NCBI GenBank assembly: GCA_021159335.1 | Contig: JAGGRZ010000080.1 | Location: 1-45,345 of the forward strand | Direction of reading: 5' to 3' | Length of the DNA: 45,345 nucleotides | Source of the DNA: a bacterium | GTDB lineage: Bacteria; UBP14; UBA6098; B30-G16 | In this document: piece by piece, positions 25,520-43,806 of the stretch | Numbering within the stretch: the stretch's first letter is position 1 | How the letters are laid out: every line of letters begins with the position of its first letter | The notes under the pieces: generated by a model | What the model was told of the DNA's origin: nothing | The model's input: the letters and a program-made list of their open reading frames with translations, nothing else | Databases searched by the model: none | Position numbers and translations under genes: made by a program

Positions 25520-26521
25520 ATGAAAAATGAGCTTGGAAAATATGATATCGTTCTTCTTTTCTCAGGCGGTCTTGATAGTTTGCTTTCAGCAGCGATACTT
25601 AAAAAGCAAGGGTTGAGTGTATTAGCGCTTAAATTTGTCCATCCTTTTCTCCCCAAGGTACTCGAGCTTTCCGAGAGATTTTATGTTGAGTCACAGGTCG
25701 GGGTTGATGTTCTGGAGGTTCCTACTGATGAGGATTACTTGCGGGTTATTCTGAATCCTCGCTTCGGTTATGGTTCCAACGCCAATCCATGCCTTGATTG
25801 CAAGATTCACTTTTTTAGGCGAGCGTGGGAGTTTGCCAAGAGAGTTGGTGCTCGTGGTCTTGCTACTGGTGAAGTTCTGGGGCAGAGGCCATTTTCGCAG
25901 AGGAGGGAAACGTTTTACCTTATCGAGAAAGAAGCTGGAGTTTCGAGGATGGTTGTGCGGCCACTTTGCGCGAAACTTTTACGACCATCAGTGCTTGAGG
26001 AATCAGGCATTGTTGACAGAAATTTACTTTATGGCATAAGTGGTCGTTCAAGAAAACGGCAGATGGAGCTGGCAAAACAATTTGGTATAAAAAAGGTTCC
26101 TACACCTGCTGGTGGATGTCTTCTTACCGACCCCGGCTATGCAGCTCGGTTTTTTGACGCCAAATTACATGGGGAAGTTGATTTAAGGAGCTTTCTACTT
26201 CTTAAAGTAGGACGACACATGCGGATTGGCGGGGTTAAGGTCGTCGTCGGGAGGAATGAGCACGAGAACAGGATTTTGCGAGAGAAGTTTTCAAGCGGAT
26301 GTTATGTTCTCGAACCCGTCGACGGTAAGGGACCTACTGTTTTGGTGTGGAAAAATGCTGATGATGAAGTAGTTACGGAAGCGGCACGGGTTCTTGCGCG
26401 TTATGTGAGAGGGCGGAGATATGTTGAGGTGCTTGCGAGGTCTCCATCAGGTGATGAAAGGAAGCTCGTTGTAGAGTCTATGCCGGAAAAATGTGTTGAT
26501 AAGTTATTGATAGGAGATTGA
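25520..26521 (+). CDS. PP-loop ATP pyrophosphatase, tRNA-thiolation-like, with a C-terminal NFACT-R-like region
   Basis: This 333-residue protein starts with an ATP-pyrophosphatase domain: SGGLDS at 15-20, a Cys pair in NPCLDCKIHF (C91, C94) and a third Cys in TPAGGCLLTDP (C200). These resemble MnmA/ThiI-type sulfur-inserting enzymes, in which such Cys bind a cluster or carry sulfur. Residues 222-333 (LLLKVGRHMRIGGVKVVVGR, then NEHEN) resemble the NFACT-R module, a combination I recall for ThiI-like proteins. There is no THUMP domain, so it is not canonical ThiI. The likely role is tRNA or other sulfur modification; the target is unknown. The adjacent tRNA-Leu is on the other strand, so no functional link follows from position. 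Confidence 0.75.
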   Translation: MKNELGKYDIVLLFSGGLDSLLSAAILKKQGLSVLALKFVHPFLPKVLELSERFYVESQVGVDVLEVPTDEDYLRVILNPRFGYGSNANPCLDCKIHFFRRAWEFAKRVGARGLATGEVLGQRPFSQRRETFYLIEKEAGVSRMVVRPLCAKLLRPSVLEESGIVDRNLLYGISGRSRKRQMELAKQFGIKKVPTPAGGCLLTDPGYAARFFDAKLHGEVDLRSFLLLKVGRHMRIGGVKVVVGRNEHENRILREKFSSGCYVLEPVDGKGPTVLVWKNADDEVVTEAARVLARYVRGRRYVEVLARSPSGDERKLVVESMPEKCVDKLLIGD

Positions 26522-26687: not shown

Positions 26688-27227
26688 ATGGGAAAGCGCG
26701 TTGTAGTGTTTATCGACGGCAGCAATCTTTATCACGGCATGAGAAGTTCGCTTGGGAAAATAAATATTGATTACGCATCATTTGTCAAAAAATTGGTTGG
26801 CGATAGAGAACTTGTGAGAGTGTATTATTATCTTCCTACCGTCAACAAGGACGAAGCCGAGGACCAGTATAAATCTCAGCAGCGCTTTTTATCCTACCTT
26901 CTTGATATACCATACTTTCATGTCAAATTTGGGCGTTTGGCACGTCAGGGCAATCATCTTATAGAAAAGAGTCTTGATGTTCAAATAGCGGTTGATATGG
27001 TTAGATATGCAGCTAACGATTTATATGATATAGCCATACTCGTTAGCGGTGATGGGGACTTTGCACCCGCCGTGGAGGCTATAAAGGAAATGGGGAAACA
27101 AGTTGAAAATGCTTTTTTTCTTAACGAGTCATCTGTTCATTTGAGACAGATTTCCGATAAATTTATAGAATTTACTCCAGAATTTTTGGAGGGGTGTATT
27201 TTTGTTAAGGAGGAAGGCGATAAATGA
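26688..27227 (+). CDS. NYN-domain protein, putative RNase (LabA/DUF88-like)
   Basis: This 179-residue protein is a single NYN/PIN-like domain. Conserved acidic residues are in place: D10 with N13 in VVFIDGSNLYHG, D97 and D103 in KSLDVQIAVDM, and D122/D124 in LVSGDGDFAPAVEAIKEMGK. These build the metal-dependent nuclease centre of PIN-like folds, so RNA cleavage is likely; the substrate is unknown. TTTTAGGAGG precedes the ATG. The stop overlaps the start of the following 690-residue membrane-protein gene by four bases (ATGA), which ties the two products together. There is no toxin-antitoxin-like small partner. Confidence 0.88.
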   Translation: MGKRVVVFIDGSNLYHGMRSSLGKINIDYASFVKKLVGDRELVRVYYYLPTVNKDEAEDQYKSQQRFLSYLLDIPYFHVKFGRLARQGNHLIEKSLDVQIAVDMVRYAANDLYDIAILVSGDGDFAPAVEAIKEMGKQVENAFFLNESSVHLRQISDKFIEFTPEFLEGCIFVKEEGDK

Positions 27228-29296
27228 TAAAATTTACAAAGTATATATATTTTATAATTAATTTTCTTTTGATGGTTTTTGTTGTTACAATAAGTGGTGC
27301 TATTTTTTCGTTGGGTGATAGAGGGCCTGAATTTTTACGTATAATGTTTTTCCCAGCGATACTTCTGGAATATATATACTACAGCCTAATAATATATTTC
27401 GTTTATCTTGGCAAAAGATTTGTAAAAGATAGGTTTGTAAACTACCTTATAGCATTTGTCCTTATGAGGCTTTTTCTTGCTGTAAGCTCAGGTATTGTTT
27501 TTAGGATGGTTCAAGAGGAGGTGGATTTTCTGCAGGGTTTTTGGGCAGCAATGTATGGAAACACTTTGATATATATGATTCAAATACTTTCTGTACCGTT
27601 TTTAGCTTATCCATTTATATTCACATATACACGCATTACAAGAATAAGAAGGATTTCAGAAAGATATGCCATGTCTGAAAAGCTGAAGGGAAATATAATT
27701 AATACAGAGGAATTAAAATATATATCATTGCCAATTTCAACTGGGCTGAAACTTACTGGAACTGTATCCGTATCAGATAAACCTGAAATTCCTGATTGGA
27801 TAGTTTTACCAAGCATTGTACGCGATAGAATATATAAAGCTATTGAAGGAAAACATATAAGCGAAATAGTGGGTGTAGAGCAAGTTGGCGAGGCTGAAAT
27901 TGTGGCTGAAGAAAAGCCGTTGGCGGCCGTGGAGGAGAAAGGTATCGAGGCTGGGGCTACAGAAGCTAGCGAAGCGAAGCCATTTACTGGTGAAGTTGAA
28001 ATGGTTGAGTTGGCAGAGGGTGAAAAGGTATCGGAAAAACCAGAGGAAGTTGTTGAGGCAAAAGAGGAGAAAGGGCCAGAGGAAATAGAGGTATTGGAAA
28101 TTTTTCCTGAAAGGGAAGCGAAGGCTGAAATACCTGAGGCATTCGAGTTTGAGAAAATGGAAGAAACAGGGGAGGAGGAAGTCGAATATACAATAAATTC
28201 GTTGGATGATAAGGTTTCAATATCAATAAGAGAGCTTATCGAACTTAACACACCGAGCGAGGCAGCGAGTGCACTTGATAGCCTTATAAAACGCGGAAGC
28301 GATTTTACTATACAGGTTCCGCTTAGGGATATATTGGATTCACTTAAAACCGGCAGCGTTAAATTTAATGTAGAAAAGATATATGATGAAGTGCCCATTG
28401 AAATTGTCAACTTCGTGACAAGGAGGCAGGTAACTGACCTTGGAAAATATGAGTTAACCATGCCTGCTGAAAAAATAATAAAAAGGATAAATCCCGAGCT
28501 TCGTAAGGAACTCGGATTAACTGGTGAGATCGCCCATGAAGTTCCATCGAAAGTTATATCTATCGATAGCGTTCTATCCGATATAGAGAGCGAAGCGAAC
28601 ACCTTAAATTACAGATTTAAATATGAATATATCGATGATGTATTGTTTATAATTCTGGTTTCAAATGAGCTTGATATAGAAAATGTGGAAGAAGTATATA
28701 ATTTGGTCTCTTGGATGACCCGAATCGACATTCCAGAGCTTGGTAAGAGGTTTAAGTTGCTTTTGACCACATCGTCCGTTGATGTTGCCTGTCTTTGCAG
28801 AGTCCCGATGAGGACAAATCTGGATTGTATAGTAATGCTTTCACCGATTGCGGCTGATAAATTAAGTATATTCACCGATATGGAAAAAGTATCCCAAAGA
28901 ATTCCTGAGTTTGCAGATGTGCAGAATCTTTCCAGGAATGTATTTGAGACTATCGAAATATCTGACATTAAGGAAGCTTCTGATATAGGTGGCTATAGCG
29001 GTTTTTGGGTTAATGTGCCTGGTAAAACGATAGCAGTTATATCCGAAAAGGATTCAAGTATGGATAATATATGTAAGTTAGCTACGATAGGCGACAAATT
29101 AACTGAGATAATATCTGGTTTGGGAAAGGAATTTTCTATATGGCGATTTTTGTTTATATTTTCTACTGATTGGTCGCTTGGTGCATGCGCTGTTCCAGGT
29201 GGTGTCTTGGTGTTTGAACCTGCCTTAGGTATAGGTGATGAAAAGCTTATTGATGAAGTAAAAAGATTATTTGAACTTTTTAATCCTCAACGGTAA
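27224..29296 (+). CDS. Unrecognised membrane protein with Glu-rich linker and roadblock-like C-terminal segments
   Basis: I do not recognise this 690-residue protein as a whole. Residues 8-135 hold four likely transmembrane helices (about 8-28, 40-63, 72-94, 113-135). A basic stretch follows at 137-150 (RITRIRRISERYAM). Residues 220-321 are a Glu-rich, probably disordered linker. Residues 322-430 contain strand-helix units such as FTIQVPLRDILDSLKTGSVK. Two similar segments, about 446-556 and 574-684, each end in paired beta strands (FKLLLTTSSVDVACLCRVP and FLFIFSTDWSLGACAVPGG) and recall roadblock/LC7 folds of MglB-type GTPase regulators. That resemblance is by eye only. The DNA is more AT-rich, with more ATA codons, than its neighbours. 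It is coupled to the NYN gene by a 4-base overlap. Confidence 0.8.
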   Translation: MIKFTKYIYFIINFLLMVFVVTISGAIFSLGDRGPEFLRIMFFPAILLEYIYYSLIIYFVYLGKRFVKDRFVNYLIAFVLMRLFLAVSSGIVFRMVQEEVDFLQGFWAAMYGNTLIYMIQILSVPFLAYPFIFTYTRITRIRRISERYAMSEKLKGNIINTEELKYISLPISTGLKLTGTVSVSDKPEIPDWIVLPSIVRDRIYKAIEGKHISEIVGVEQVGEAEIVAEEKPLAAVEEKGIEAGATEASEAKPFTGEVEMVELAEGEKVSEKPEEVVEAKEEKGPEEIEVLEIFPEREAKAEIPEAFEFEKMEETGEEEVEYTINSLDDKVSISIRELIELNTPSEAASALDSLIKRGSDFTIQVPLRDILDSLKTGSVKFNVEKIYDEVPIEIVNFVTRRQVTDLGKYELTMPAEKIIKRINPELRKELGLTGEIAHEVPSKVISIDSVLSDIESEANTLNYRFKYEYIDDVLFIILVSNELDIENVEEVYNLVSWMTRIDIPELGKRFKLLLTTSSVDVACLCRVPMRTNLDCIVMLSPIAADKLSIFTDMEKVSQRIPEFADVQNLSRNVFETIEISDIKEASDIGGYSGFWVNVPGKTIAVISEKDSSMDNICKLATIGDKLTEIISGLGKEFSIWRFLFIFSTDWSLGACAVPGGVLVFEPALGIGDEKLIDEVKRLFELFNPQR

Positions 29297-39084: not shown

Positions 39085-40326
39085 TTACGAAACTATTTCC
39101 GGGCGCAGGAATATTACTATTACATAAGGTCTTTTCTCAACGCTTTTAAACCTGAATAATGGACCTATAAGTGGTATGTCTTTGAGTATTGGCACACCTG
39201 ATTGCGTTTCCATTCTTTCCTCGCCGCTTAAACCACCAATAACGAGAATGTCACCCGATTCGATGGCTACGGTCGTTTTGGCGCTTCTTGTCGTTATTTC
39301 AACCTGTGCAGCGCCCGGGACGAATGCGCTTCGTTCGACATTGATGTTTAGTATTATGCTATCTCCGCCAGCTATTTGTGGGGTAACGGTGAGTTTCGTT
39401 GATGCAGTTATCATCTGATAGACGGTGTTGCCAGCTTGGTCGAGCATCGTTATCGCGCGCTGGACTGAGGAGTTTATTTCCGCTTGTATATTTTCCATAG
39501 TGACTACATGAGGTTCGTCGAGAATCCTCGATTTGTCCTCGGAGATCATCGCGGAAAGCTTTACATCAAAATTGAATTCGCCAGCTCTTATTATGCCCCA
39601 TGTGAAGTTGCCTATAGGGTCGGCGACACGATCTGTTGATATGCTTGCACTTATGGTAGCATCTTGTTTGGAAGCCATCCAGTTTATGCCGAACTCATTC
39701 AAGTACTTTTTGTCAACTTGTAATATCTGGCATGAAATCTTTATCTGTCTTCTCATCCTATCCAGCGAATCTATCATAGCAAGGATTGTGGGGAACTGTG
39801 ATGGGAGGTCATTTATGATGAGTGAATTTGAAGTAGGGTCGACAACTATATCGCCTCTTTCGGAAAGGGCTGTTTTAAGTGGTGTAGCGAGGTTTCTTGC
39901 GTCGACATTATGAATCCTTATCACCCTTGTTTCCGTTTGGATCTGCTCCCGTTCCTTTTTGACATTTTCAAGTTCGTCGAACTTTCGCTTCCAGTATTTG
40001 CTCGTGCTTAAAATATAGATGTAGCCAGTTTTCTGAATTGCTTTGAGGTCATACAGGTCGATTATCATATTGAAGACCTCAGCCCAGGTTACATTTTCAA
40101 GTTTAAGTGAGATTTTATTTTTAAGTTCCGGGTCAACGACTATGTTCACATTCGCCGTATCGGCAAGGAATGTGAAAACAGCGTGTATGTCAGCGTCCTT
40201 GAAAACTATGGAGGTAAATTTTATTCTCGTCGCGTTCGGGACTTTAACGCCACCAGCGAGTTTCTGTGCATGAATAGCTCCAAAGCAAATCCCAATTATT
40301 GTAACTGTTATTATCAATTTTTTCAT
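39085..40326 (-). CDS. pilQ: Type IV pilus secretin PilQ, short form without AMIN domain
   Basis: This 413-residue protein has a signal peptide, an STN-type domain at 37-108 (IVFKDADIHAVFTFLADTAN ... LENVTWAEVFNMII), a secretin N domain at 132-192 and the C-terminal secretin pore domain at about 195-412, including SRILDEPHVVTMEN, GDILVIGGL and VPILKDIPLIGPLFRF. It forms the outer-membrane channel for the pilus. It is much shorter than usual PilQ because no AMIN domain precedes the STN domain; that domain is found on the gene upstream. The complete pilMNOPQ order supports the assignment. Confidence 0.93.
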   Translation of the reverse strand: MKKLIITVTIIGICFGAIHAQKLAGGVKVPNATRIKFTSIVFKDADIHAVFTFLADTANVNIVVDPELKNKISLKLENVTWAEVFNMIIDLYDLKAIQKTGYIYILSTSKYWKRKFDELENVKKEREQIQTETRVIRIHNVDARNLATPLKTALSERGDIVVDPTSNSLIINDLPSQFPTILAMIDSLDRMRRQIKISCQILQVDKKYLNEFGINWMASKQDATISASISTDRVADPIGNFTWGIIRAGEFNFDVKLSAMISEDKSRILDEPHVVTMENIQAEINSSVQRAITMLDQAGNTVYQMITASTKLTVTPQIAGGDSIILNINVERSAFVPGAAQVEITTRSAKTTVAIESGDILVIGGLSGEERMETQSGVPILKDIPLIGPLFRFKSVEKRPYVIVIFLRPEIVS

Positions 40327-40345
40327 AGTCGCTCTCCTTTTATCG

Positions 40346-41341
40346 TTATTCGGCAGAAACTTTCTTCAGGGGAATCACGACTCTTCTTGCCTGACCGAAT
40401 TCAACAACCCTGAACACGGCGCTCGTGTCGTTTACCTCGATGCAATTCCCGTTTTCCACGGTATCACCGGGTGCGAGGATGTAGCTGTATCCCACCTGGT
40501 CTTGCATTATAGCCATATTCACATTGCCGGATTTTACGACACCCACGAGTGTTAGCTCCTCCACGAAGGGAATCGGTTCCTTCCCAAATTCTATTTTTCT
40601 ATGTCGTTCAGGCATGGCGAATGGATCCTTCTTTGGCGGCAAGAAAACCACGAGATTCCTAACATATCGCGCCAATGTTATCGTGTCTTTTTCCTCAGAG
40701 ACGGCCTCAAAAATTAATGTTTCAGGTTTCAAAAATTTCGCGATTTCAGGTTCGAGTTCACCTTCTGCAGCAAATAAAGATTCGACCGGTTGACTTACTG
40801 CGAGAAGGCTTTCCTTCGGCGCTTCCGCAGGTTTGGGCTTTGTGATTGTGGTTTCTTTGGCGGCTTTTTCGGGTTTTATCGGCGCTGGCGCAAGTCTGCC
40901 ACTGCTCCAGCCTGAAAATTCGGGATAGTGAGGCGTATGAAGCGATAATTTTACTCCAGTTGGGGTTATTTTAAGCCTGGCTGTGGTTACTACATCTGCA
41001 AGGTCGAAGACAATCCTCGTTATTGGGGTGGGTTTGGAAACATGCTGCGCAGCTCGTATAGATGTTATAATGCCAGCCGGGAGCAGTCTGTATTGCGATT
41101 TGGGCAAGTTAACAATGCCACCGAAAAGGTCAACCACGAGCCGAGGCGGATTCTCGATTATGAACTTTTTCGCGTCGGGTTTTGCGTTAGTCGTTATTTG
41201 AATGAATGTAGAATCACCTTTTGCTGAAAGGCGAATTTCATCCACGGTGTAGCGCTTTTGTTCCGGTTTTTGCGGTTGTTTCTGTGCACTGGATGTTGCC
41301 AGAAAGATTGCCAGCAATATGTAGAGCCACGCTTTTTTCAT
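40346..41341 (-). CDS. pilP: AMIN-PilP fusion protein of the pilus alignment complex
   Basis: This 331-residue exported protein occupies the pilP position. After a signal peptide, residues 32-137 form an AMIN domain (IRLSAKGDSTFIQITTNAKP, PRLVVDLFGG, ITRIVFDL), which normally sits at the N-terminus of PilQ and binds peptidoglycan. Residues 150-225 are a Pro/Lys/Glu linker. Residues 238-326 resemble PilP: KKDPF, then EELTLVGVVKSGNVNMAIMQ, YILAPGDTV and a beta-rich ending. There is no lipobox, whereas classical PilP is a lipoprotein. PilP links PilNO in the inner membrane to PilQ. Domain boundaries are estimated by eye. Confidence 0.75.
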   Translation of the reverse strand: MKKAWLYILLAIFLATSSAQKQPQKPEQKRYTVDEIRLSAKGDSTFIQITTNAKPDAKKFIIENPPRLVVDLFGGIVNLPKSQYRLLPAGIITSIRAAQHVSKPTPITRIVFDLADVVTTARLKITPTGVKLSLHTPHYPEFSGWSSGRLAPAPIKPEKAAKETTITKPKPAEAPKESLLAVSQPVESLFAAEGELEPEIAKFLKPETLIFEAVSEEKDTITLARYVRNLVVFLPPKKDPFAMPERHRKIEFGKEPIPFVEELTLVGVVKSGNVNMAIMQDQVGYSYILAPGDTVENGNCIEVNDTSAVFRVVEFGQARRVVIPLKKVSAE

Positions 41342-41343
41342 TT

Positions 41344-42021
41344 TTACGCAGGTGGTTTTGGTTTTGGTGGTGTAGGCGGTTTTGGCGTTGACCGCCTTGG
41401 TCGTCGTTTGCCTCGTTTTTGGGCTTTTTTAGTTACTTCTTCTATCCTGGTTATCCTTTGCTCCGCGGTCATGTGATGAGTATTAACTATCATTGTTACC
41501 TCTATCTGGTTTTCGCCTTGGCCGCTTCTGGTTATTTTTAGTTCATCTACAAGTGCTGTAAACGGCAGATTGGAAATTAAAGCCAGGAATTTTCCCAATC
41601 CCGCGAATGTTGTCTTTATTTGCAGCGCGTACGGGTCAACAATGTAATATGTTTGCGGAACAGACGGTCTTGGTTCAATTCTTATTATTGATACATCTGC
41701 CTGTTTTGCAGCGAGATAAATTTTGCTTATGAAGTTGGGTATATCTCTTTCAGCGGGCATTAATTCTTCTACGAGTTTGTATTGCGCGAAAAGTCTCTCC
41801 AGTTCCCATCGCAATTTGGCTTCGTTCGCGAGGGTCGCTTTTGCTCTTTGGAGCTTTGCCCTTAACTGCGTTAGTGTAGCCGTCTTTTCCTCTATGGTTT
41901 CCTGATTGGGTTTGTAAACCTGGGCATACCATATGTAAAGCACCATTACGCCTATGAAAAGTATAACGGCTATTTTTAGAAGCCCAGAAGCTTTTATTTC
42001 TATTTTACCAAAAGCTTTCAT
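41344..42021 (-). CDS. pilO: Type IV pilus assembly protein PilO
   Basis: This 225-residue inner-membrane protein has one transmembrane helix (about 13-33), a coiled coil (about 38-88) and a ferredoxin-like periplasmic domain with MPAERDIPNFISKIYLAAKQ and FAGLGKFLALISNLPFTALV, as in PilO. The C-terminus is a basic, Pro/Lys-rich tail (PPTPPKPKPPA). The ATG overlaps the pilN stop by four bases. It pairs with PilN to form the alignment platform. Confidence 0.88.
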   Translation of the reverse strand: MKAFGKIEIKASGLLKIAVILFIGVMVLYIWYAQVYKPNQETIEEKTATLTQLRAKLQRAKATLANEAKLRWELERLFAQYKLVEELMPAERDIPNFISKIYLAAKQADVSIIRIEPRPSVPQTYYIVDPYALQIKTTFAGLGKFLALISNLPFTALVDELKITRSGQGENQIEVTMIVNTHHMTAEQRITRIEEVTKKAQKRGKRRPRRSTPKPPTPPKPKPPA

Positions 42022-42722
42022 GGGTTTATTCCCGAAAACATTATTTTGGCTTCTTCCTTCGAGTAAAGTCCAAGCTTCTTCCGCGTCGATGTTATGAATC
42101 CGCCTACAATGCGTTTCTTTTTGTTGGTGGATGTCGTGTCGATTTCGAATTTCCCGAGTTTGAGAGTATCATAGGCGCCCGCCACGGACATGGTTATGGT
42201 AAACGAGTATACATCGCCTTCTTTCCCGTGCTGCATGGTTATTGCACCTATATTTATGTTCTCGAACAGTTTTGACTCTATGAGGTTTGCGAGGAACATG
42301 GCTATAGATTTAAGATTGTAGCTTTTTCCTGAACTTTCGAGTTGTTTGTTGCCTTTGTCTATCAAATCTATTACCCACAGATAATCGGGAACCAATTCAG
42401 AAAAGTCAGACAGCAGCCTTACCCAATATGCGCGCTTGTTGTCGAGTTGCTGAATTGCCGTTAGTCTCTTTTTGAGTTCGCCTTTTATTTTGTCTATTTG
42501 TTTGAGGATTGCGAGTTTTGGTTCGTACTTTTTTAGTTCTGTCTGCACGAATGCTATTTCACCTTCCAGCTCGTTTATTCGGCTTTGTTGCGATAAAGAG
42601 ATAATGTAAAGCAGCATGATCTCCCCTACTATGAGCAGAGCACCGTAAATAACGGTTCTATCTATAAGTCTTGCTTTCTTTTTCTTTTTTAATTCAGGCG
42701 GAAGTAAATTTATTTTAAACAT
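42018..42722 (-). CDS. pilN: Type IV pilus assembly protein PilN
   Basis: This 234-residue protein starts with the conserved cytoplasmic PilM-binding peptide MFKINLLPPELK, then a transmembrane segment (about 22-44), coiled coil, and a periplasmic domain. The INLLP motif is diagnostic. A good ribosome site (GAGGAGGGG) lies within the pilM end. There is one base between the pilM stop and the pilN start. Partner of PilO and PilM. Confidence 0.9.
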   Translation of the reverse strand: MFKINLLPPELKKKKKARLIDRTVIYGALLIVGEIMLLYIISLSQQSRINELEGEIAFVQTELKKYEPKLAILKQIDKIKGELKKRLTAIQQLDNKRAYWVRLLSDFSELVPDYLWVIDLIDKGNKQLESSGKSYNLKSIAMFLANLIESKLFENINIGAITMQHGKEGDVYSFTITMSVAGAYDTLKLGKFEIDTTSTNKKKRIVGGFITSTRKKLGLYSKEEAKIMFSGINP

Positions 42723-42723
42723 G

Positions 42724-43806
42724 CTATGCTTCCCCTCCTCTTATCGCCAGTCCCAGAGCCACCGCATAGGTAGCTCTTCGCTCGACCGTTGACAGGTCTT
42801 CGTGTGCTTCGGGTTCGTATGATATCTTTTTCAGTGGGTCAATTATTTCGCACGGGATACCCAGTCTTGATGCTAACGACTCAGCGAGGAACGGTATCAT
42901 AACAGCTCCGCCGCTTATGAAAAGTCTGTCGATGCTTCCGCCTCCTGGTGCGTTCTCAATGTATGAGAATGCCATTCCTAAACCAGCGCTCAGTTCTTCT
43001 ATAGAATTGTATATTGCCTTTTTTGTCGTTGGCGAGTTTTCCGGAACAGCTTCAGATTTCATGTATCGCTTGAGTTCATCAGTGGATATCCTGAGCTCGC
43101 TCTGGAATCTGCCCCACACATTTTTTGCGGCAGTGCCTATGTCTCTTATGCTGAAAAGATTGCCGCCGATTATAAACACGACATTCGTTACATTGTGTCC
43201 GATATCTGCTATAGCTATGTTAGTTTGGGGTCCTATTTCATAGTTGTATTCAAAAATATTATACGCAGCGATGGCTTCGAGGTCAACTATTGTGGGTATT
43301 AACCCAGCCTCCACTACAACGCCAACATAGTCGTCGACTATGTCATTGCGGGCAGCTACGAGTAAGACCGAAACATTCTTCCCATCCGAGCCGAGCTCAA
43401 CGAAATCGAGCTGAACACTGTCTATTCCCGTTGGGATTCTTTGCTCAGCCTCCAGCGTTATAGCCTGTTTCAGGAGAACATCCCTTTTACCTTTGCCAGT
43501 TGGTTCAGGTATTACGAGTCTGTCAACCAGAATTTTTCTTCCAGCCACTGCTATGCATACCTCGCTTAGTTTTGGGTCGACCTCGTCAACGAAAGACTGT
43601 ATCGCGTAAACGATGCCCTCGTGGTCTCTTATTTCTTTGTCGACTATCTGTCCGGGAGTTAGCAGTTTTTTACGAATGTTTTTCAGCGTTAGATTACCCA
43701 TTTTATCGGACTCGAGGATAGCAAGCTTAAGAGAGAATGTACCTATGTCGAGTCCTGCAAGCTTTTTCGTTCGCTTGCCCAGACCCAGTTTTATTTTCTT
43801 TCCCAT
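42724..43806 (-). CDS. pilM: Type IV pilus assembly ATPase-like protein PilM
   Basis: This 360-residue actin-like protein has phosphate-1 motif LAGLDIGTFSLKLAILES, the PilM-type segments TPGQIVDKEI and LLKQAITLEAEQRIP, an IADIGHNVTNVVFI phosphate-2 motif and IDRLFISGGAVMIPFLAESL in the adenosine part. PilM binds the N-terminus of PilN on the cytoplasmic side. It is the first gene of the cluster, with a promoter-like element at 43832-43860. The N-terminus carries a basic extension (KKIKLGLGKRTKK). No clear Shine-Dalgarno site is seen. Confidence 0.92.
   Translation of the reverse strand: MGKKIKLGLGKRTKKLAGLDIGTFSLKLAILESDKMGNLTLKNIRKKLLTPGQIVDKEIRDHEGIVYAIQSFVDEVDPKLSEVCIAVAGRKILVDRLVIPEPTGKGKRDVLLKQAITLEAEQRIPTGIDSVQLDFVELGSDGKNVSVLLVAARNDIVDDYVGVVVEAGLIPTIVDLEAIAAYNIFEYNYEIGPQTNIAIADIGHNVTNVVFIIGGNLFSIRDIGTAAKNVWGRFQSELRISTDELKRYMKSEAVPENSPTTKKAIYNSIEELSAGLGMAFSYIENAPGGGSIDRLFISGGAVMIPFLAESLASRLGIPCEIIDPLKKISYEPEAHEDLSTVERRATYAVALGLAIRGGEA

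Follow-up and report, generated by a model that had tools for sequence, protein, structure and literature searches.

Among the described systems closest to the locus analysed here is the MglA/MglB polarity module of Myxococcus xanthus and Thermus thermophilus (PDB 3t12, 5ymx, 6hjh). In M. xanthus the module is served by extra regulators, RomR/RomX being the GEF and RomY the MglB co-GAP (sections of PMC9481161). A related operon layout is found in the conservon, the Actinobacterial G protein system CvnA-D, where a membrane protein shares its operon with a Ras-like GTPase and a roadblock protein of the MglB type (sections of PMC13343842 and PMC4316618). The neighbourhoods of MglA are described as mostly highly variable, and no dedicated four-helix partner is named in the sections of the published survey considered here (PMC4316618).

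The window, i.e. the complete 45,345-nt stretch of bacterial DNA that was analysed, carries the gene for a 690-aa membrane protein whose homologues lie in operons that likewise encode MglA and an MglB-like roadblock protein. There are clear differences from the known module, however: no membrane protein of this architecture is described in the sections of the literature considered here, and the window's own genome is without a detected MglA. CvnA of the conservon is a histidine kinase, whereas the window protein lacks a kinase domain. The use of RomR/RomX and RomY as extra regulators (sections of PMC9481161) corresponds to what we propose below for the membrane protein. With the eukaryotic longin/roadblock GTPase regulators Mon1-Ccz1 and Ragulator the protein would have in common a general design, in which a scaffold at the membrane acts on a small GTPase by means of roadblock/longin domains. 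We read this likeness as a resemblance of plan rather than as demonstrated homology; the comparison of the window model with Mon1-Ccz1-RMC1, a longin-type Rab exchange factor, gave a TM-score of 0.21 and no sequence relation. The gene upstream belongs to the NYN/LabA-like putative RNases (PF01936; PDB 2qip), of which it has the full domain and the acidic residues, but it overlaps the membrane-protein gene, an arrangement that is limited to one clade.

The gene pair and the membrane-protein family

The pair consists of an NYN gene of 179 codons and the membrane-protein gene of 690 codons, which share an ATGA (Table 1). A Shine-Dalgarno-like sequence precedes each of the two frames, TTAGGAGG before 26688 and AAGGAGG before 27224, and neither is a chance frame, since homologues are known for both; the overlapping genes described in the earlier note are thus confirmed. 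In the sister genus g4 the corresponding genes overlap by 1 nt (TAATG or TGATG). Immediately upstream of the pair a tRNA-Leu gene is found on the minus strand, and positions 25520-26521 of the plus strand encode a HUP protein of the ThiI-like/tRNA-thiolation type that carries a fused NFACT-R_2 RNA-binding domain. The latter gene and an acetate/butyrate-kinase-like gene are still neighbours of the NYN gene in the sister genus.

Table 1. Features of the NYN/membrane-protein gene pair, in positions of the window
Feature	Positions	Strand	Basis
NYN-domain (PIN-like) putative RNase, 179 aa	26688..27227	+	Pfam, PDB 2qip, orthologue alignment
ATGA shared by the NYN stop and the membrane-protein start	27224..27227	+	direct sequence reading
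Membrane-protein ORF, 690 aa	27224..29296	+	
Four-helix membrane domain, residues 1-134	27224..27625	+	hydropathy; conserved in phylum
Glu-rich linker, residues 205-321, 39 Glu in 117 residues	27836..28186	+	composition
Phylum-wide conserved domain, residues 322-430, motif [IV]PIExVNF	28187..28513	+	homologue alignment
C-terminal segment 1, residues 443-566, predicted a-bb-a-bbb-a	28550..28921	+	AlphaFold; fold match not significant
C-terminal segment 2, residues 567-690, predicted b-bb-a-bbb-a	28922..29293	+	AlphaFold; fold match not significant

Judged by its sequence, the NYN protein is an ordinary family member and a putative RNase. It matches PF01936 at E 4.9e-28 over profile positions 1-143 of 145, and PDB 2qip at E 3.4e-6. 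Residues D10, N13, D97, D122 and D124 are invariant in an alignment of seven orthologues, and these comprise the acidic metal-binding residues of the domain (D10, D97, D122 and D124), in line with what had been expected from the single sequence. The same genome has a second NYN-like gene (L098, positions 180-716 of the short contig C93). The ORFs that share this contig resemble, by eye, phage portal and terminase genes, and the region is possibly a prophage remnant.

The first 134 residues of the membrane protein contain four hydrophobic segments according to hydropathy (about 1-33, 39-63, 69-97 and 114-134), and both these helices and the Glu-rich linker of roughly 100 residues had been recognized correctly before. 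A Lys/Arg-rich stretch (residues 137-147) follows helix 4. Positive charge after the last of four helices suggests that both termini are cytoplasmic (N-in/C-in). Scans with Pfam and NCBIfam matched no family and found neither a kinase domain nor any other recognised domain; the protein is a member of an undescribed family. Its relatives were confined to the window's own, little-studied phylum in a search of 61 genomes, and a profile of residues 322-430 run against 290 sampled genomes matched in this phylum alone, with one copy per genome. Thirteen genomes of the phylum were counted as having a homologue, not including G008, whose copy is no more than an N-terminal fragment at the end of a contig; the copies of G001, G012, G013 and G015 are cut by contig ends.

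All full-length relatives have the four-helix domain, a linker that varies in length and is either acidic or proline-rich, and the 322-430 domain with its [IV]PIExVNF motif, which has 16 invariant columns among 10 homologues. This domain, and not the pair of C-terminal segments, is the phylum-conserved core. The tandem segments are present in family f1, and family f3 has a tail of similar appearance, which is a likeness of look rather than demonstrated homology. In family f4 the tail is absent and the protein stops soon after the 322-430 domain.

The two C-terminal segments had been described as alike and as reminiscent of roadblock/LC7 folds. Residues 322-690 in fact divide into three parts, 322-430, about 443-566 and about 567-690, of which the last two are the segments. 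AlphaFold modelled residues 322-690 of the window protein with pLDDT 81 and pTM 0.61, and the C-terminal part of a homologue with pLDDT 83 and pTM 0.85; in each job a single model out of five stood clearly above the rest in quality. In both models the order of elements in segment 1 is that of roadblock/LC7, and in segment 2 it is that of roadblock without the first helix, which is longin-like. The predicted strand/helix order is thus similar in the two segments, and BLASTP detects a weak sequence resemblance (E 0.089; z 2.9 relative to shuffles), but profiles show none (hhalign probability 0.1).

As for the fold itself, segment 1 is predicted to have the element order of a roadblock, but no significant match was obtained by Foldseek or by profile. 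Foldseek searches of the PDB with the window and homologue models returned nothing at E <= 1e-3, roadblock or other, and the top match of the window model, the Mon1-Ccz1-RMC1 chain 8jbe_C, is not significant (E 9e-3, probability 0.57). Pfam gave no PF03259 (Roadblock/LC7) match in the membrane protein up to E 0.1, and a PDB sequence search with the C-terminal profile gave no match. In hhalign comparisons with the roadblock proteins of the operon described below, each segment scored about 1% or less and the similar-looking tail of the f3 homologues gave no signal; the method is not wholly blind, as the operon's single-helix roadblock-like protein scored moderately (probability 44, E 2.4e-4). 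The two segments could act in the manner of a roadblock or longin pair. Many Foldseek matches to HPPD/extradiol dioxygenases were discarded on account of probabilities of about 0.03-0.1 and a TM-score of about 0.1.

The MglA/roadblock operon

The membrane-protein gene normally heads an operon of an MglA-type GTPase and roadblock regulators. It runs directly, on the same strand, into roadblock and/or MglA genes in 9 of the 13 genomes (G001, G002, G009, G010, G012, G013, G014, G015 and G016), which span the families f1, f3 and f4. In f4 the membrane-protein gene is followed by MglA and then roadblock; in the f1 genera g2 and g3 it is followed, in this sequence, by genes for a single-helix roadblock-like protein, a roadblock protein, MglA and another roadblock protein; and in f3 by those for a second membrane protein, a roadblock protein, MglA and again a roadblock protein. 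The family gene is hence separated from the roadblock gene by a further membrane protein in f1 and f3, and that of f1 has a roadblock-like C-terminus.

The identity of the neighbours is clear. The operon GTPase matches the MglA of Thermus (PDB 3t12) at E 2.8e-75 and that of Myxococcus at E 2e-67. The roadblock proteins match PF03259 (Robl_LC7) at E 7.7e-18 and 2.1e-11, and the one encoded last in the operon also hits the MglB model of NCBIfam (E 4.6e-23), though with a score below the model's cut-off. A roadblock link of the membrane protein is thus strongly supported by its gene context. It is mainly in this way that the earlier note's intuition pointed to the right system, while membership of the fold is without a significant match.

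Origin of the NYN pairing and dispersal of the operon

An NYN gene directly upstream of the membrane-protein gene is found in 3 genomes of the 13 only, namely the window's own, G003 and G006, which represent two sister genera; one further genome has the gene beside neither NYN nor MglA/roadblock genes. By the criterion set in the earlier note, this count, against nine genomes with the MglA/roadblock context, means that the NYN pairing is not the ancestral unit, and the proposal of an NYN-membrane-protein module is not supported as a general one. Rather, the pairing is a late, lineage-specific rearrangement. The NYN orthologue is located elsewhere in genera g2, g3 and g6 and in family f4 (identity 43-67%); in g2 and g3 it lies between HD-domain-like and sugar-phosphate-isomerase-like genes, as identified by eye. 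A gene for a DUF4388 protein is found a few genes 5' of it in these two genera (L090 210-1373, L092 3-1085; tested in L090). In the membrane-protein tree the window protein groups with the sister genus g4 (support 91/90), so that a single origin of the pairing suffices. No paper in the literature searched combined NYN domain, bacteria and roadblock, and the name of the phylum matched nothing there but names of unrelated enzymes.

A gene pairing noticed by eye can therefore be a derived state; seen against the whole phylum, the locus points to GTPase signalling rather than to RNA processing.

The ancestral operon is dispersed in a graded manner across g4 and the window's own genome, with the caveat that the latter is a draft (170 contigs, 98% complete). 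In g4 (G003 and G006) a divergent MglA and the end-type roadblock gene lie on one contig and the mid-type roadblock gene on another. The window's own genome has one orphan roadblock gene (C104:6930-7199), which is closest to the operon's last, end-type one. Two MglA queries found no MglA in this genome, even at E 10, and a wider search with an Arf profile, which does detect MglA in G002, G003 and G010, retrieved only ORFs of 314-758 aa, lengths that fit other GTPases. The supposed partner is thus either missing or too divergent to be seen. In G005 the membrane-protein gene stands by itself and the MglA operon is on a different contig. In the sister genus (L086 4995-7582 and L087) the roadblock gene and the divergent MglA gene are followed by a gene with weak similarity, below the cut-off, to DUF4388/DUF2226.

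A proposed membrane component for a bacterial GTPase switch

We consider it on balance probable that the 690-aa protein acts from the inner membrane as part of an MglA/roadblock small-GTPase switch, as its anchor or regulator, and that its gene was left coupled to NYN when the operon broke up. The four helices would anchor the protein in the inner membrane, and the long acidic linker would hold the domain with the IPIE-VNF motif, in some families together with two roadblock/longin-like domains, in the cytoplasm, where the conserved 322-430 domain could reach cytosolic partners. The cytoplasmic part would bind MglA or its roadblock regulators, which are the most likely partners because of the gene order, and through such binding the GTPase would be brought to the membrane or regulated there. 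The gene context, the conservation, the break-up of the operon and the overlap with the NYN gene are themselves observed. We place the break-up in the common ancestor of the window's genus and g4, where the gene came to lie behind the NYN RNase gene and to be translationally coupled to it.

The lack of a detectable MglA in the window's own genome could also mean that the membrane protein is, in this lineage, a remnant under relaxed selection after loss of MglA, with NYN as a neighbour that merely provides the promoter. The membrane-protein branches fit this, those of the two rearranged genera (0.91 and 0.87) being about twice as long as those of the relatives g3 and g6 (0.38 and 0.42), which are without the NYN pairing; the linkage was also lost in g6, despite its shorter branch. 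The frame of 690 codons is intact, however, the motif residues of the 322-430 domain and the C-terminal glycines and tryptophans are still conserved, and MglA is still present in the sister genus, which makes this explanation unlikely in our view.

We regard it as rather improbable that the two proteins work together in this clade, the membrane protein having been recruited from the GTPase system to tether the NYN RNase to the inner membrane, much as RNase Y and RNase E are membrane-located. The catalytic residues of NYN are conserved and the overlapping arrangement was retained in two genera, even though the membrane proteins have diverged to about 30% identity. Nevertheless, NYN orthologues of 60-67% identity occur in related genera without the membrane protein as a neighbour, the pairing requires one origin only, and NYN is far better conserved than the membrane protein, which argues against a tightly paired evolution. 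Similarly doubtful is the possibility that the protein, with tandem roadblock/longin-like domains and a new conserved domain, is a membrane-embedded exchange factor or scaffold for MglA, and so a counterpart of Ragulator or Mon1-Ccz1 in a single polypeptide, that was reused in one lineage to place an NYN RNase at the membrane. Finally, it is very improbable that the protein merely shares an operon with the GTPase and is unrelated to it: adjacency by itself is no proof of function and the MglA linkage is gone in four genomes (G000, G003, G005 and G006), but in the other nine, from three families, the genes are directly adjacent and co-oriented.

To our knowledge, little is known about the connection between bacterial Ras-like GTPases and the membrane outside Myxococcus, Bdellovibrio and Streptomyces. 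Here a membrane protein that occurs phylum-wide in single copy, is encoded beside MglA and is fused in some families to possible roadblock/longin-like domains would offer a specific candidate for the role of membrane receptor or regulator.

The output of MglA in Myxococcus and Bdellovibrio includes type IV pili (PMC3983030). A tie between the MglA system and the window's own type IV pilus genes is only suggestive; these encode PilM, PilN, PilO, an AMIN-domain protein and a secretin (39085-43806, minus strand) and lie about 10 kb away from the membrane-protein gene.
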